A stretch of DNA of 64,000 bases from Phycisphaerales bacterium (GTDB lineage Bacteria > Planctomycetota > Phycisphaerae > Phycisphaerales > UBA1924), in NCBI GenBank assembly GCA_028289195.1, contig JANQQR010000005.1, forward strand, positions 124,001 to 188,000. Reading direction: 5' to 3'. The notes beneath the pieces were generated by a model, which had not been told where the DNA came from, did not search any database, and saw only the letters and a program-made list of their open reading frames with translations. The stretch's first letter is position 1; the number at the start of each line of letters is the position of its first letter. Made by a program: the position numbers and the translations under genes. This document shows, in pieces, positions 49,757 to 59,209 of this stretch.

Positions 49757-52700
49757 CTACGGACAGATGCGCAGCCAGTTGCGCAGCGCGGCGGTGATGT
49801 CCGCGAAATCAACGGTGCCGTTGCCGTCGGCGTCGCCCGGGCCCCCGGAGCCGGGCGCGTAGGTCGCGAGCCAGTTGCGCAGGATCTCGGTGATGTCGGC
49901 GAAATCGACGGTGCCGCTGGCGTCGGCGTCGCCCTCGCAGAAGGCTGGCGCCGGCGCCTGGGCGAGCACGGAGACCGCATCAAGCGTCATCGTGACAGGA
50001 CCGCGATCGCCGTCGGCGAAGATGGTCGTTCCGGCGTTGATCGTCAGCACGTCGTTGCCCTCGGCGTTGTCGACGTCGGCGCCGAGCACGAACCGCGGGT
50101 CGGGCCCGGTCGCCAGGTCGTCGTCGAGCGTGAAGATCAGGTCTCCGCCCGGACCGCCGGTCAGGTCGTTGCGCAGCACCTTGACCACGGTCGAGCCTGA
50201 GCCGCCATCGGCGACGATCGCGAGATCGAGATCGCCCTGGGGGTCGCTGTCGAGATCGACCGCTGCGATCGAGAAAGCCGCGGGCCCGATCGGGAGCTCG
50301 ACGCTCGGGGCGAAGCTGTAGTCGCCGATGCCTGAGCTCGTGTTCTTGAGGATCGACACCGAGCCGCCGGCCTGATTGACCGTGGCGAGGTCTACGCGAC
50401 CGTCGAGGTCGAGATCGGCGCCGATCACCTGCACGGGCTGCTCGCCGACCGGGAGTGAGATCGGCGCCGCGAAGTTCGCGCCGCCGGAGTTCGCGAGAAA
50501 GGACAGCGTCCCGCCCGACGCGTTCGCCGAGGTCAGGTCGTCCCATTTGTCGTCGTCGCTGTTGACGACGCCCACCCAGACCGGGCTGCCTCCTGTTGGA
50601 AGGAGCGAACTGAAGCTCACGCCGTTCCACCCATCGCCGGATCCGCCGAGGTTCGTCAGCACGGTGATGGTGTCGTCGTCCGTGTTGGCGACGGCGATGT
50701 CCGTGCCGTTGTCGAGGTCGAAGTCGCCGAGCGCGACGGCCCCGGGCGCATCACCGACGCCGATCGACGGGTCGGGCACCAGGTTGCCGGCGCCGTCGTT
50801 GCGGAGAACCGTGAATGAATCGTCTGCGCGGTTGGTGACGACAGCGTCGGGAAGGCCGTCGTTGTCGATGTCGCCGGCGGCGATCGCGCTGGGGTCGCGA
50901 CCGACCGGCGCCTGAAGCGTGCCGCCCGTGAACCCGAGCCAGGCGCCGCCGGAATCCGTGCCCGCGTTGAACAGCACGATGGCGTCGCCGGGGTTCGCGA
51001 CCGGATCCGTGGCGTCGGGCACGACGATCGCGATGTCGACGAACCCGTCGGGCTGGCCTCCCGGCCCGCCGCCAAAGTCCGCGGTCGCGGCGGCGACGGG
51101 CGCGCCGTCGACGTCGAAGCTCTGGGCCGGGTCGACGTTGATCTCGTCGCTGAGCGTGTCGACGACCAGCGAGACCGAGATGATCCCCCGACTGTCGGCG
51201 ACGGGCAGCGGGTAGTCGACGCGGAGGAAGCGACCCATGCCGTCGGCCCCGTCGGGGATGCCCGGCATGAGCGCGACATCGAAGCGCGAGGCGCTCACGT
51301 TGCTGGACGCCGAGATGAACTCGGCGGGCCCGAACGTGTCGGGATCGGGGACGAAGCCCTGGGCGAAGGCGACGCCGAGGCGTCCCGATAGCTCGACATC
51401 TCCAGAGAGATCCAGGCGGTCGATGTCGCCCGTTCCGGCGCCGAACACATCGACCGAGAGGGCTCCCGACTCGCTCGCGCTCCCGCCGGGCGGCACGCCG
51501 CGCTGGCGGAACGAGCCGTCGATCGAGAGCACGCCGGCAGCGAGGTCGGAACCGGGGTCGACGTCTCCGAAGTTCGAGAGGATCGAGGTGTTGATCGAGC
51601 CCTGGCCTTCGATCGCGCCGCCGGCGCGGTTCGTGATGCCGATCGGCGCGGTGAGCACCCCGTCGTTCTCGAGCGTCAGCGTCGCGTCTCCGGCGCCCGC
51701 GAGCGTGATGCGCTGGCTGGTCTCGGTCCAGTTCGACGTCGAGCCGTCGATCACCACGCTGGCGCTGGAACCCGGCTCGTCCGCGAGGACCAATTCGTTG
51801 AAGGTCGTCGTCTGGAGCGTGCCGCCAGCGCGGATCTCGAGCGCGGCGCTGCCCGCGCCCCCGATGAACAGGTCGTTGTGCACCAGCGTCACGCTGCTGG
51901 AGTCGCCCTCGATGCGCAGGGTCGCATCGGAGGTGGCGTCGCGCGCCAGCGTGGTCGAGTCGAGGAAGCCGGTGGTTTCGATGACGCCCTTGTCGGCGAC
52001 GACAACCTCCGCGTCGCCGGCGCCCCCGATGATGATGCCGGTCGCCGTGCCGGTCAGTTGCAGCGTCGACGGCGTGCACATGGTCATCTGCTGATCGCAC
52101 AGCGACTGGAACACGCTCAAAAGGCCGCTCGATCCGGCTTCGAGGCCGACGATGAGTTCTGCGCCGACCTGGGCCAGCGCCCCGTCGATGATGCGCGCCT
52201 CTGCATTCGTGGCCTTCGAACCGACCACCAATCGCCCCGAGGTGTCCAGGCGGGTCGTCGGGTCTTCGACGATCAGCAGCGACAGGGGTTCGAGCATCGT
52301 GTCCGTCGGTTCGGGCCCGACGACGGCATCGACGGCGCTCAGCACGCCCTCGACACCCAGCGCGTTGATCAGGCGGAGGCGCGCCTCCTTGTCGGGCAAC
52401 CCCCCGACGCTCAGGCCCGGCGCCGCGAGCGAGGCCGGGTCGGTGAGCGTGAGCGACTTGCCGTTGAAGCTGATGCTGACGTCGTCGGTGCGGACGCCGA
52501 GTGCGCGCACGATCGGGTCGGGAGTGGTCGGGTTGATGTTGATGCCGAACGCGGCGTCGGTCGTGCCGGTGATCTGGTTGTCGACGAGCGTGACGTCGAG
52601 CGGGCCGGGCGCCACGTCGCCGAGCCAGTTGGTCGCGAGGTCGAACAGGCCGCCGGTGGTGCTGTCCCACACCCGAGGGCCCACGTCGCGCCCAAAAACG

Positions 52701-54340
52701 ATGTAGGCCTCGCCCGCGTCGGCGGTGCCGGCGAGGATCGCGCCGATCGCGATGTCGTCGATGCCGTCGTTGTTCACGTCGCCGATGCAGGCCACCTCCT
52801 GCCCGGCGCGATCGCGGGAGTTCTCGCCGAACAGCACGAACCCCTCGGCTCCGGTGAGCGAGGAGCGGTTGAAGCGGACCGGGAACTCGCCGAACACCGA
52901 GGTGTCGCGCCCGAAGATGACGTAGCACTCGCCGGCGTCCTCGATCATGTCGGGGTTCGCGTAGCGCGACGAGATGAGCATGTCGTCCACGCCGTCGCCG
53001 TTGATGTCGCCCGCTCCGGCGACGGCGAACCCCAGCTGGTCGCTCAGCTCGACGCCCTCGAACGTGAAACCGTCCGAGCCGTTGAGGTTCGTGAGTTCGA
53101 TGAGGCCGGACGATCCGACCGACGGGCCGCCGAAGACTATGTAGCTCTCGCCGGCGTCGTTGACGGCGCCGTAGCCGCCGGGGTTGGCGCGCCACGCGCC
53201 GATGATGACGTCGTCGAACCCGTCGCCGTTGACATCGCCCGTGCCGGAGACCGATCTCCCGGCGTTGTCGAACGCGTTGATGCCGTTGAGGATGAACCCG
53301 TCGGTGCCGTTGAGCGCGGAGATCTCGATCGCTGCGGCGAAGTTGCCCTGCTGCGCCGTGTTGCGCCCGAAGATGATGTAGGCCTGCCCGCCGTTCTGGT
53401 TGTTCTGGATGTTCGGATCGGCGCCGCGCGCGCCGATGATGATGTCATCCACGCCGTCGCCGTTGAAGTCGCCGATGCGATCGAGTCGGTCGCCGCTGAG
53501 ATCACCGCCCCGGATGCCGTTGAGCACGAACCCGTTCGCGCCGTTGAGTGTCGACAGGACGAACGAACCGGTCGAGCCGAGGCCGGCGGCGCCGAAGATG
53601 ACGTACGTCTTCCCCGCGTCGTTGCCCGAGGGCAGGTCCGACTTCGAAGCGCCGATCATCAGGTCCGTGATGCCGTCGCCGTTGAGGTCGCCCGCGCCGG
53701 ACACCGTCCCGGTGTACGAACCGTTCTCGATGCTGGGGATCACGAAGCCGTTGGTCCCGTTCAGCGACGACAGATCCAGCGAGGGTGCGAACGGGCCGCT
53801 CATCGCGGTGTTGCGCCCGAAGATGACGTAGCTCTCGCCGACCTGGCTGTATCCGTTGCGCGGTGCGCGCGAGGCGCCGATCAGGAGATCGTCGAGACCG
53901 TCGCCGTTGATATCGCCGGCGCCTGCGACGAAACGCCCACTCATGTCGTTGTCGGCGACACCGTTGACGACGAACCCGGTAGTGCCGTCCAGAGCGGCCG
54001 CGGAGAAACTCGCGGGGAACGGGCCGCTAACGGCCGTGTCCTTCCCGAAGATCACCAGTGTCTGACCGCGATCGGTGCCGCCCGCCGCGACGTCCCACGC
54101 GCCGACGACAAGGTCGTCGATGCCGTCGCCGTTGAGGTCGCCCGCTGCAGAGATCGAGACGCCGAGTTCGTCGAGATCGGCCTGGCCGAAGACAACGAAA
54201 CCATCCGAGCCGTCGCCGCCGTTACCGGGCTTGAGGCTCGCAAGCTCGAACCGTTCAGGGAACGGGAGCGTGGACTGGCCGAACGCCGTTCCCGCGATCG
54301 CCGCGATCATCGCGGCCGCTGTGACGCGACAGGGGGTCAT
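49757..54340 (-). CDS. Giant secreted FG-GAP/VCBS protein with dockerin-like C-terminus
   Basis: 1527 residues. Signal peptide MTPCRVTAAAMIAAIAGTAFGQ. Residues ~45-560 form seven FG-GAP repeats, each with 'GDLNGDGIDDLVVGA' calcium loops and 'G.tYVIFGR' strands, as in integrin-alpha beta-propellers. Residues ~570-1060 form a beta-helix-like region with autotransporter-style passages ('VTLVDNQITGTTDAAFGINI', 'LTLENDGVLTAPIGITNRAGG'). Residues ~1100-1430 contain further VCBS-like repeats ('GDFDLDNGTDIAVANTDDDTITVL', 'DLDLDGRVDLATVNQAGGSVSIL'). It ends with two dockerin-type units ('GDADASGTVDFADITEILRNWL', 'GDADGNGTVDFADITAALRNWL') and CP. Likely calcium-stabilised, secreted and adhesive. Enzymatic motifs are not seen. 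Confidence 0.9.
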   Translation of the reverse strand: MTPCRVTAAAMIAAIAGTAFGQSTLPFPERFELASLKPGNGGDGSDGFVVFGQADLDELGVSISAAGDLNGDGIDDLVVGAWDVAAGGTDRGQTLVIFGKDTAVSGPFPASFSAAALDGTTGFVVNGVADNDMSGRFVAGAGDINGDGLDDLLIGASRAPRNGYSQVGESYVIFGRNTAMSGPFAPSLDLSSLNGTNGFVIPSIENGSYTGTVSGAGDLNGDGITDLMIGASKSDLPSGNDAGKTYVIFGAAGLGSTGSFVLSTLNGANGFVLNGIRGGDLSGDRLDRIGDFNGDGVDDIIIGARGADPNIQNNQNGGQAYIIFGRNTAQQGNFAAAIEISALNGTDGFILNGINAFDNAGRSVSGTGDVNGDGFDDVIIGAWRANPGGYGAVNDAGESYIVFGGPSVGSSGLIELTNLNGSDGFTFEGVELSDQLGFAVAGAGDINGDGVDDMLISSRYANPDMIEDAGECYVIFGRDTSVFGEFPVRFNRSSLTGAEGFVLFGENSRDRAGQEVACIGDVNNDGIDDIAIGAILAGTADAGEAYIVFGRDVGPRVWDSTTGGLFDLATNWLGDVAPGPLDVTLVDNQITGTTDAAFGININPTTPDPIVRALGVRTDDVSISFNGKSLTLTDPASLAAPGLSVGGLPDKEARLRLINALGVEGVLSAVDAVVGPEPTDTMLEPLSLLIVEDPTTRLDTSGRLVVGSKATNAEARIIDGALAQVGAELIVGLEAGSSGLLSVFQSLCDQQMTMCTPSTLQLTGTATGIIIGGAGDAEVVVADKGVIETTGFLDSTTLARDATSDATLRIEGDSSSVTLVHNDLFIGGAGSAALEIRAGGTLQTTTFNELVLADEPGSSASVVIDGSTSNWTETSQRITLAGAGDATLTLENDGVLTAPIGITNRAGGAIEGQGSINTSILSNFGDVDPGSDLAAGVLSIDGSFRQRGVPPGGSASESGALSVDVFGAGTGDIDRLDLSGDVELSGRLGVAFAQGFVPDPDTFGPAEFISASSNVSASRFDVALMPGIPDGADGMGRFLRVDYPLPVADSRGIISVSLVVDTLSDEINVDPAQSFDVDGAPVAAATADFGGGPGGQPDGFVDIAIVVPDATDPVANPGDAIVLFNAGTDSGGAWLGFTGGTLQAPVGRDPSAIAAGDIDNDGLPDAVVTNRADDSFTVLRNDGAGNLVPDPSIGVGDAPGAVALGDFDLDNGTDIAVANTDDDTITVLTNLGGSGDGWNGVSFSSLLPTGGSPVWVGVVNSDDDKWDDLTSANASGGTLSFLANSGGANFAAPISLPVGEQPVQVIGADLDLDGRVDLATVNQAGGSVSILKNTSSGIGDYSFAPSVELPIGPAAFSIAAVDLDSDPQGDLDLAIVADGGSGSTVVKVLRNDLTGGPGGDLIFTLDDDLATGPDPRFVLGADVDNAEGNDVLTINAGTTIFADGDRGPVTMTLDAVSVLAQAPAPAFCEGDADASGTVDFADITEILRNWLATYAPGSGGPGDADGNGTVDFADITAALRNWLRICP

Positions 54341-56429: not shown

Positions 56430-56564
56430 CTGAGCGGTGTTGTTTCCAATCGTCGCGCAGCGGTGGGCGTGAAAGTTCGGATGGAGTGGGCCGAACGTCA
56501 CGGAACGCGAGCGACGCTCAAGAATGGTTCAGAGACCGGCCAGGATCGCCGGAAGGTACGCTGG

Positions 56565-57962
56565 ATGGCCAAGCCTGATCATGAGGTCTGGGTGGAGATC
56601 TTGTCGTATCTCCGCGACAACCACAGCGCGGTGTGCCGCAAGTGGTTCGAGGAGATCGAACCGGTGCGCATCGAGGGCGGCGTGTTCAACGTCCGTCTCG
56701 AGCACCCGATCCGTCGCCAGTACCTCGAGCGCGAGTGCTCGGAGCATTTCACCGAAGCGCTGCAGGCCGTCACCGGCCGGTTGATGTCGGTCCGGTTCGT
56801 CGAAGACGAGGAGCCCGAGGCCGAAGCGCCCTCCGGGCCGGCCGTGGCGGCGTCCAACGGCTCGATGTCGGGGATGCGCAAGGCTCCCGCGTCGAGTTCC
56901 GCGTCCCCGCTGGCGATCGTCCCGGATTACACGTTCGAGAACTTCATCGTCGGCCCCGAGAACCGCCTGGCCCACGCGGCGGCGAAGGCGGTCTCCTCGA
57001 ACCCGGGCAAGACCTACAACCCCCTGTTCATCCACGGTGGCGTCGGCCTGGGCAAAACGCACCTGCTGCAGGCGATCTGCCTGGCCCTGCTGAACGACTT
57101 CGAGGACCTCTCGATCTACTACGTCTCCTGCGACGAGTTCATGACCCAGTTCATGGATGCCGTCCAGGCCGGCCAGATGCACGATTTCCGCCACCGCTTC
57201 CGCGACGTGGACGTGCTCGTGATCGATGACATCCACTTCCTCGCCAAGCGCGATCGCACCCAGGAGGAGTTCTTCCACACCTTCAACAGCCTCTACCAGG
57301 CCGAGAAGCAGATCATCCTCTCCAGCGACGCCCCGCCGAACGAGATCCCGGATCTCGAGTCCCGGCTCGTCAGCCGGTTCCAGTCGGGCCTCGTCGTCCA
57401 GGTGAACGTGCCGACCTACGACACGCGCGTCCAGATCGTGAAACAGAAGGCCAAGATCCGCGACATCACGCTCGAGGACGACATCGCCTGCTACATCGCG
57501 TCGCGCTCGGCCACGAACATCCGCGAGCTCGAGGGCGCGATCACCAAGGTGCACATGCAGAGCATCGCGGACTCCAAGCCGCTGTCGCTGGAGATCGCCA
57601 AGGCCGCGCTCGGCTCCGGGGACGAAGAGGCCATCAAGCCCCAGGTGACGATCTCGAACATCATCGAGACCGTCACGGCGTTCTACGGCGTCAAGCTGAC
57701 CGATCTCCAGTCGCGACGGCGCCAGAAGTCGATCGCCCTCCCGCGTCAGGTGTGCATGTACCTGGCCCGTCGCCACACGAGGTTCAGCCTCGAGGAGATC
57801 GGCGGCTACTTCGGGGGGCGCGACCACACGACGGTCATGCACGCCGTGAAGACGATCGATCGCAAACGCAATGAGGACTACGACTTCGGTCGCCTGGTCA
57901 CCTCGTTGGAAGAGCAGATCGAGGTCGCCTCGCCGGGCACCATCCACGCCGCGGCCAGCTGA
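56565..57962 (+). CDS. dnaA: Chromosomal replication initiator DnaA
   Basis: 465 residues from ATG 56565 with GGAAGG upstream. Domain I (residues ~1-85, 'HEVWVEILSYLRDNHSAVCRKWFEEIEPV'), a linker, AAA+ domain III with 'NFIVGPENRLAHAAAKAV', Walker A 'IHGGVGLGKTHLLQA', Walker B 'VLVIDDIHFLAKRDRTQEEFFHTFN', the arginine-finger region 'DLESRLVSRFQSGL', and DNA-binding domain IV ending with the signature 'RRHTRFSLEEIGGYFGGRDHTTVMHAVKTI'. It binds DnaA boxes and opens oriC. The frame runs open upstream but the Shine-Dalgarno and domain I fix the start. dnaN does not follow, as in other planctomycetes. Confidence 0.97.
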   Translation: MAKPDHEVWVEILSYLRDNHSAVCRKWFEEIEPVRIEGGVFNVRLEHPIRRQYLERECSEHFTEALQAVTGRLMSVRFVEDEEPEAEAPSGPAVAASNGSMSGMRKAPASSSASPLAIVPDYTFENFIVGPENRLAHAAAKAVSSNPGKTYNPLFIHGGVGLGKTHLLQAICLALLNDFEDLSIYYVSCDEFMTQFMDAVQAGQMHDFRHRFRDVDVLVIDDIHFLAKRDRTQEEFFHTFNSLYQAEKQIILSSDAPPNEIPDLESRLVSRFQSGLVVQVNVPTYDTRVQIVKQKAKIRDITLEDDIACYIASRSATNIRELEGAITKVHMQSIADSKPLSLEIAKAALGSGDEEAIKPQVTISNIIETVTAFYGVKLTDLQSRRRQKSIALPRQVCMYLARRHTRFSLEEIGGYFGGRDHTTVMHAVKTIDRKRNEDYDFGRLVTSLEEQIEVASPGTIHAAAS

Positions 57963-58369
57963 CCGCGCCCCGCCCTCCTGACAGATGATTGCGGATCTGA
58001 TGTGGACAACTTGCGCCCGCACCCCTCTTCGCTGCCGGGCATGGGTTGTGGATCGGGTGTCGGTTGACGCTCGCGAGTGTGCGGACGCTCCTGGAGGGCC
58101 CCGGAACTGTCGAGAGACTGTCAGGTTGTCCCCAGGCCTTGTGGCCTGAGAACCACCTCTCTATGGGCGTTTTCAGGGATTCACCACGGGTTTTCCCCGA
58201 AGCGCCAGCGCCTTTCACTAGAGGTATTGGTTCTTCTCTTTGATGAAAGAGGAAGAGGCTGCCCTTCGGGAGCGCCCCGGTTTGTGCAGGTCGTGCGAAG
58301 GCTTATCCGGACCCACGCTCGCCTGTCCACATGTGGATAGACCGTTGTGAACTCTGGCTTTGCGCTCCG
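57963..58369. other. oriC: Probable replication origin (oriC) region between dnaA and mutM
   Basis: 407 bp without a gene between the convergent dnaA and mutM. DnaA-box-like nonamers: TTGTCCACA (58001-58009, minus strand; the common high-GC variant), CGATCCACA (58047-58055, minus), TTGTCCCCA (58126-58134, plus), TTATCCGGA (58303-58311, plus), CTGTCCACA (58323-58331, plus) and CTATCCACA (58332-58340, minus). The last two abut as an 18-bp near-perfect palindrome. Between them, 58155-58260 is AT-richer than its surroundings, with TTCTTCTCTTTGATGAAAGAGG, a candidate unwinding region. Placement beside dnaA fits the usual arrangement. Confirmation would need GC-skew or origin mapping. Confidence 0.7.
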
Positions 58370-59209
58370 TCAGCCTCCGGGCTGGCACCCGGAGCACCAC
58401 ACGGTGGTCCGCTGTGCCAGCGATCCGGAGTCGAGAGCCCGGCCACAGATCACGCAGGGCTGTCCGCCTCGGCCGTAGACGCGGTGCCGGTGCTGGAAGG
58501 CCCCGGGCTGGTCGTCGGTGTGGCGATAGTCGCGGATCGTCGAGCCACCCTGCTCGATGGCCTCGGCCAGCACGCACCGGATGTGGCGGGCGATCTCTTC
58601 GAATTGACCTGTCTCCAGGTCCCTGCACAGCGCGAAAGGGGAGATGCCCGCCCGGAAGAGCGATTCATCGGCGTAGATGTTCCCCACGCCGGCGATCACC
58701 GCCTGGTCGAGGAGCGCCGCCTTGATCGCCCGGGCGGAGCTGCCCGCTCGAGCCTGGATGTCTGCGCCCGTCGCCTCGAGGCCGTCGGGACCGAGGCGGC
58801 ACCAGCGCTGGGTGTGCAACTCGTCGAGGCTGGGGAAGGTCCAGACGCCGCCGAAGCGTCGGGGGTCGCGGAACAGGATGCGCCCGGCCGGGCGTCCATC
58901 CGGGTGGGCGAGGCTCCAGATGACATGGGTGTGGTCGGCCTGCGCGGGCCGGGCGCCGGGCGGGAGCGCCGTCAGCTGGCCGCTCATCCCCAGGTGCAGA
59001 CAGATCGCGGCGCCGGAATCGGACACGATCGCCATCTGTTTGCCTCGCCGCAGGAAGCTGGCGAGCGTCTGGCCCGAGAGCAGTGCGCGGGGCGAGCGAC
59101 TGCCGTGGGCGTAGTCCCGGCGCTTCAGCGAGACGCGCCTGACCGAGAGGCCCCGCGTGGCCGATTCCAGGCTGGAGCGGACGTGCTCGACCTCCGGGAG
59201 TTCGGGCAT
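58370..59209 (-). CDS. mutM: Formamidopyrimidine-DNA glycosylase
   Basis: 279 residues. The N-terminal catalytic 'PELPEVEHVRSSLE' (Pro1 nucleophile after Met removal, Glu2), Lys in 'LRRGKQMAI', H2TH region 'LLDQAVIAGVGNIYADESLFRAGISP', and a zinc finger 'CVICGRALDSGSLAQRTTVWCSGCQ'. It excises 8-oxoguanine and other oxidised purines. Oriented against dnaA, with oriC between. The C-terminus is slightly shortened after the last Cys. Its start is 110 bp from the divergent MoxR gene. Confidence 0.94.
   Translation of the reverse strand: MPELPEVEHVRSSLESATRGLSVRRVSLKRRDYAHGSRSPRALLSGQTLASFLRRGKQMAIVSDSGAAICLHLGMSGQLTALPPGARPAQADHTHVIWSLAHPDGRPAGRILFRDPRRFGGVWTFPSLDELHTQRWCRLGPDGLEATGADIQARAGSSARAIKAALLDQAVIAGVGNIYADESLFRAGISPFALCRDLETGQFEEIARHIRCVLAEAIEQGGSTIRDYRHTDDQPGAFQHRHRVYGRGGQPCVICGRALDSGSLAQRTTVWCSGCQPGG

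Follow-up and report, generated by a model that had tools for sequence, protein, structure and literature searches.

The intergenic gap between dnaA and mutM in this Phycisphaerales genome raises the question whether it is the origin of chromosomal replication (oriC), as a sequence-only reading of this DNA had proposed. The window, by which we mean the whole 64-kb stretch of DNA that was analyzed (C6:124001-188000), has a GC content of 68% and is part of a 266-kb contig (C6) in a 3.63-Mb draft genome of 28 contigs. The gap is 407 bp long (57963-58369), and two genes converge on it, dnaA on the plus strand and mutM on the minus strand. The encoded DnaA displays an ATPase domain and a domain IV bearing the canonical GGRDHTTV motif. 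Its start codon is probably the ATG at 56565 rather than 56463, as suggested by M35, which is invariant in an alignment of 18 sequences. Elsewhere in the genome (C2:179244-180461), there is a second, divergent DnaA of 561 aa, which matches PF00308 and PF08299 and in which domain IV reads GRRNHSTA in place of GGRDHTTV; most relatives also have at least two DnaA-like matches. Also in the window, a minus-strand gene (49757-54340) encodes, as judged by eye, a 1527-aa secreted protein with many FG-GAP-like (GDINGDG) repeats and a dockerin-like C terminus.

DnaA boxes between dnaA and mutM

We searched for DnaA boxes using the consensus TTRTCCACA and allowing up to two mismatches, with sites of at most one mismatch forming the strong class. 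Exactly six sites were recounted in 340 bp (58001-58340), as the sequence-only reading had claimed for this gap, and four of these have at most one mismatch. The genes and boxes are as follows.

56463..57962, plus strand: dnaA, initiator (PF00308, 2.8e-65; PF08299, 1.1e-28)
57963..58369, no strand: predicted oriC region (box cluster, layout in relatives, mutM linkage)
58001..58009, minus strand: proximal DnaA box, perfect TTGTCCACA (0 mismatches; conserved class +50 to +150)
58047..58055, minus strand: weak DnaA box (2 mismatches)
58126..58134, plus strand: DnaA box TTGTCCCCA (1 mismatch)
58303..58311, plus strand: weak DnaA box (2 mismatches)
58323..58331, plus strand: DnaA box CTGTCCACA, left half of an abutting pair (1 mismatch; partner in some relatives only)
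58332..58340, minus strand: distal DnaA box CTATCCACA (1 mismatch; conserved class +350 to +500)
58370-59209, minus strand: mutM (PF06831 and PF01149), the gene that keeps its linkage to the oriC module

Over the whole 64 kb, sites with at most one mismatch occur at chance level (7 versus 6.93 in shuffled sequences), and four of the seven sit within the gap, which is the densest 407-bp window on the 266-kb contig. With 0.047 such boxes expected per 407 bp, finding four has a Poisson P of ∼1.2e-7, uncorrected for the choice of window. The cluster thus exceeds chance, which is one of the criteria for a bacterial oriC.

The last two boxes, CTGTCCACA and TGTGGATAG, abut head-to-head with a spacing of 0 bp (58323-58340), which confirms the inverted pair noticed earlier, and they are the only head-to-head pair with a spacing of 0-29 bp across the contig. 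When the module regions of this genome and its relatives were inspected, a plus-strand partner was found no more than 40 bp upstream of 12 of 83 minus-strand boxes, at spacings of 0, 1, 1, 5 (four times), 12, 13, 13, 16, and 32 bp. As a control, only one partner was found on the other side (tail-to-tail) of the same 83 boxes. Close head-to-head box pairs are therefore a recurrent element of this oriC module, and because they recur, a spacing of 0 belongs to a wider set of values. The earlier view that the zero spacing is unusual stands only in part: zero itself was seen in none of the other sampled relatives, but close pairs (1-16 bp) recur in relatives.

The predicted unwinding core and its linkage to mutM

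Between the boxes lies a putative unwinding core, composed of the following elements.

58191..58199, plus strand: degenerate middle box TTTTCCCCG, aligned with TTNTCCACA, which is conserved in the unwinding core
58202..58209, no strand: GC-rich spacer GCGCCAGC, of which relatives keep SGMCA(G)
58213..58230, no strand: stretch resembling DnaA-trios, degenerate in this genome and CTACTATGATGATGA-like in relatives (motif rules from PMC8287927)
58211..58250, no strand: AT-rich stretch, probable unwinding element (37.5% GC)
58233..58255, no strand: inverted repeat of pyrimidine/purine type, CTTCTCTTT-GATG-AAAGAGGAAG, weakly supported as a feature of the family

The locally AT-rich stretch that had been noticed previously could be placed at 58211-58250. 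These 40 bp rank in the lowest 0.06% by GC content among the 40-bp windows of the 64-kb window, providing the AT-rich element adjoining boxes that is another criterion for oriC. The inverted repeat is weakly above shuffled sequences (z -2.4); over 27 relatives the combined P is 1.6e-4, with individual values non-significant in most, and RNAalifold predicted no pairs in the unwinding core. An alignment shows the core common to relatives to consist of TTNTCCACA, 2-4 bases, CGACAG or GCGCCAG, triplets of the CTA/TGA type, and an AT-rich pyrimidine/purine inverted repeat. A basal unwinding system (BUS) is composed of a DnaA box, a spacer of at most 16 bp, and at least three DnaA-trios (PMC8287927), and this order is plain by eye in four relatives (G001, G013, G067, and G083). 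In the genome under study, as judged by eye, the middle box TTTTCCCCG is degenerate and ∼4 of 6 trios retain the central base. The predicted oriC here may well be of the BUS type.

To define how far the layout is conserved, boxes with at most one mismatch were counted downstream of the dnaA stop codon in 58 genomes drawn from the same family or order. Counts in successive 50-bp intervals are 5, 20, 11, 2, 8, 10, 6, 14, 16, and 6, and beyond +500 boxes are nearly gone (1, 1, 1, 0, 2, and 1). There are three positional classes, i.e. minus-strand boxes at about +50 to +150, plus-strand boxes at about +200 to +350, and minus-strand boxes at about +350 to +500. Some relatives, such as G015 and G020, have no box with at most one mismatch beside dnaA or mutM. 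Fourteen genomes have dnaA and mutM apart; in these, 23 boxes lie after mutM and 1 lies after dnaA. The array is therefore not an appendage of dnaA. Two order-level relatives, G127 and G131, carry this core as TTTCCACAAAGCGCCAGCATAACTACTAGGTAAGAAG beside mutM, 6-12 kb from dnaA. Retention of the box array at the orthologous locus in relatives is a further criterion for oriC, and it was found here.

The box classes in 58 relatives, the BUS-like core, the linkage to mutM, and the skew steps of G127 and G131 described below all support the proposal of an origin in this gap. We consider it very probable that 57963-58369 is oriC, of the ordinary DnaA type and with a layout common to relatives. From these sequence features we infer that, in this organism, DnaA binds the gap, the DNA unwinds there, and replication begins there. 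The protein, with GGRDHTTV in its domain IV, would occupy the boxes at the proximal, middle, and distal positions. Starting at the middle box, it would be guided over the GC-rich spacer onto the trio-like AT-rich strand and would open it, leading to helicase loading. The pair at 58323-58340 would form the distal head-to-head end of the array, probably with two DnaA molecules face to face.

Like oriC/BUS of Bacillus subtilis, the module has a box, then a spacer rich in GC, then CTA/CTT/TTA repeats that resemble trios, with relative G001 reading TTACTTCTACTAATACTG. Unlike in B. subtilis, the core box and trios are degenerate in this genome, an AT-rich pyrimidine/purine inverted repeat follows, and the module is linked to mutM, not to dnaA alone. 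In the epsilonproteobacterial and Thermotoga oriCs, which are directional arrays, oriented DnaA boxes flank an unwinding element, as they flank the probable one here, whereas the distal head-to-head pair is distinctive, with 0 bp in this genome and 1-16 bp in relatives. A literature search for a described origin in this planctomycete order found none. For an uncultured planctomycete order, the locus provides a specific origin that comparison with relatives supports, and the reliable neighbor of oriC in this order is mutM, not dnaA.

GC skew and the position of the origin

A GC-skew switch at oriC is usual but not defining, and some bacterial chromosomes have no clean skew. The skew of this genome was read on contig C6, one of the 28 contigs, where it is weak. 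It is positive from 0 to ∼212 kb, where it reaches zero, and we found no switch on this contig at 182 kb (dnaA/oriC), which is G-rich on both sides, nor at 47 kb (parS). parB and parS share the contig with dnaA/oriC, 134 kb away. Four-fold sites show the same unswitched skew, whichever strand the gene is on. A skew switch at the locus, a usual sign of oriC, is thus missing on contig C6. Because this is one contig with weak skew, and skew is mosaic in relatives, the finding weakens the case for oriC but does not exclude it.

Skew in relatives is divided between two loci. A step from negative to positive lies within ∼2 kb of parB/parS in seven relatives (G055, G035, G050, G066, G127, G131, and G135) and is weaker in G015 and G023. 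Four of these (G055, G035, G050, and G066) switch locally at parB/parS rather than at dnaA, and in several family members the parB/parS switch is 29-184 kb from dnaA. At the orthologous oriC locus, skew switches in G127 and G131, shows a local step in G023, and has none in G055, G035, G050, G066, and G120. The sequence-only reading had named skew switching elsewhere as evidence against an origin, and this was partly found, in the G-rich flanks on contig C6 and in the relatives that switch at parB/parS.

Within the regions read in G127 and G131, skew changes most strongly (steps of 0.86 and 0.94) at ∼0.5 kb or less from the mutM-linked module. As a whole-chromosome proxy, we used a strand-specific G-rich 10-mer. 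In G127, one up-switch accounts for 61 of 82 sites (permutation maximum 57), with the best grid position at 4.28 Mb; oriC is at 0.007 Mb, equivalent to 4.299 Mb, and 0.2-0.32 Mb is also within the interval. In G131, the fit is 143 of 195 sites (permutation maximum 126), with the up-switch at 2.28-2.48 Mb, oriC at 2.511 Mb, and parS at 2.363 Mb. Because the single up-switch in both genomes beats every permutation, a global origin for the order falls in the oriC-parS interval, within which the 10-mer proxy cannot tell oriC from parS.

These skew data bear on the possibility that the main origin of the lineage is at parB/parS, the dnaA/mutM cluster being a former or secondary origin. The steps near parB/parS favor it, as does the unswitched skew at dnaA in most of those relatives. 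Nevertheless, we regard it as unlikely, given that no conserved DnaA-box cluster was found near parS, that the skew of this genome does not switch at parS, that relatives conserve the BUS-like array next to mutM, and that the step at the mutM-linked module is the larger one in G127 and G131. Box clusters can also titrate or reactivate DnaA, as established for E. coli, and a datA/DARS-like locus that is no origin might look similar; this is very improbable here, as the layout of an unwinding core and an AT-rich stretch are present, the skew step coincides with the module in G127 and G131, and the cluster is the sole dense one on the 266-kb contig. The single perfect match and the chance-level count over the window might suggest that the box-like nonamers arose in the gap by chance, but this has a negligible probability given a P of ∼1e-7 and is refuted by the positions conserved in 58 relatives.

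Mosaic skew and the number of origins

Because of the mosaic skew, attempts to locate the origin from skew will fail for many genomes of this order, as will growth-rate estimates that depend on them. In samples of G066 (380-780 and 2870-3310 kb) and G035, skew reaches ±0.3 (±0.6 at four-fold sites), has equal sign for genes of both strands, and flips sign many times around single-contig chromosomes. Steps from negative to positive are sharp and returns slower, giving a factory-roof skew in G066. These flips may be inversions or extra origins. In G127 and G131, whole-sequence skew is up to ±0.6, in domains of 15-30 kb. Left of dnaA, collinear and equally oriented genes have opposite third-position skews in the two species (-0.7 to -0.85 versus +0.5 to +0.8), and in G131 the passage between skew states is smooth. 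Simple inversion fails to explain this pattern.

Several skew boundaries in G066 are near copies of a ∼1.0-kb repeat that are 99% identical (copies at, for example, 735.6k, 2926.9k, 2962.5k, 2981k, and 3143.6k); the repeat is probably an insertion sequence. Two ∼1-kb near-identical repeats are inverted near boundaries, which fits inversions. Neither DnaA boxes nor a common motif were found at all skew steps of G066. Multiple origins, which the factory-roof skew of G066 had made a serious candidate, were rejected as the main explanation in view of the near-identical ∼1-kb repeats at some boundaries in G066, the non-significant asymmetry of up versus down steps (P 0.07-0.12), and the single global switch in G127 and G131. 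It seems to us quite improbable that replication of some Phycisphaerales chromosomes starts at several fixed origins, including at least oriC/mutM and parB/parS. If it did, alternating strand-asymmetry domains of 15-100 kb with sharp negative-to-positive steps and gradual returns would result, and a divergent second DnaA could act at the additional origins.

Two other observations were made in G066. A further parS (606189) is 1 kb from another skew step, and a perfect inverted repeat, TGGCACCGCTCTCCAGAGCGGTGCCA, is dispersed in ∼17-25 copies over the 840 kb read, its copies possibly being terminators.
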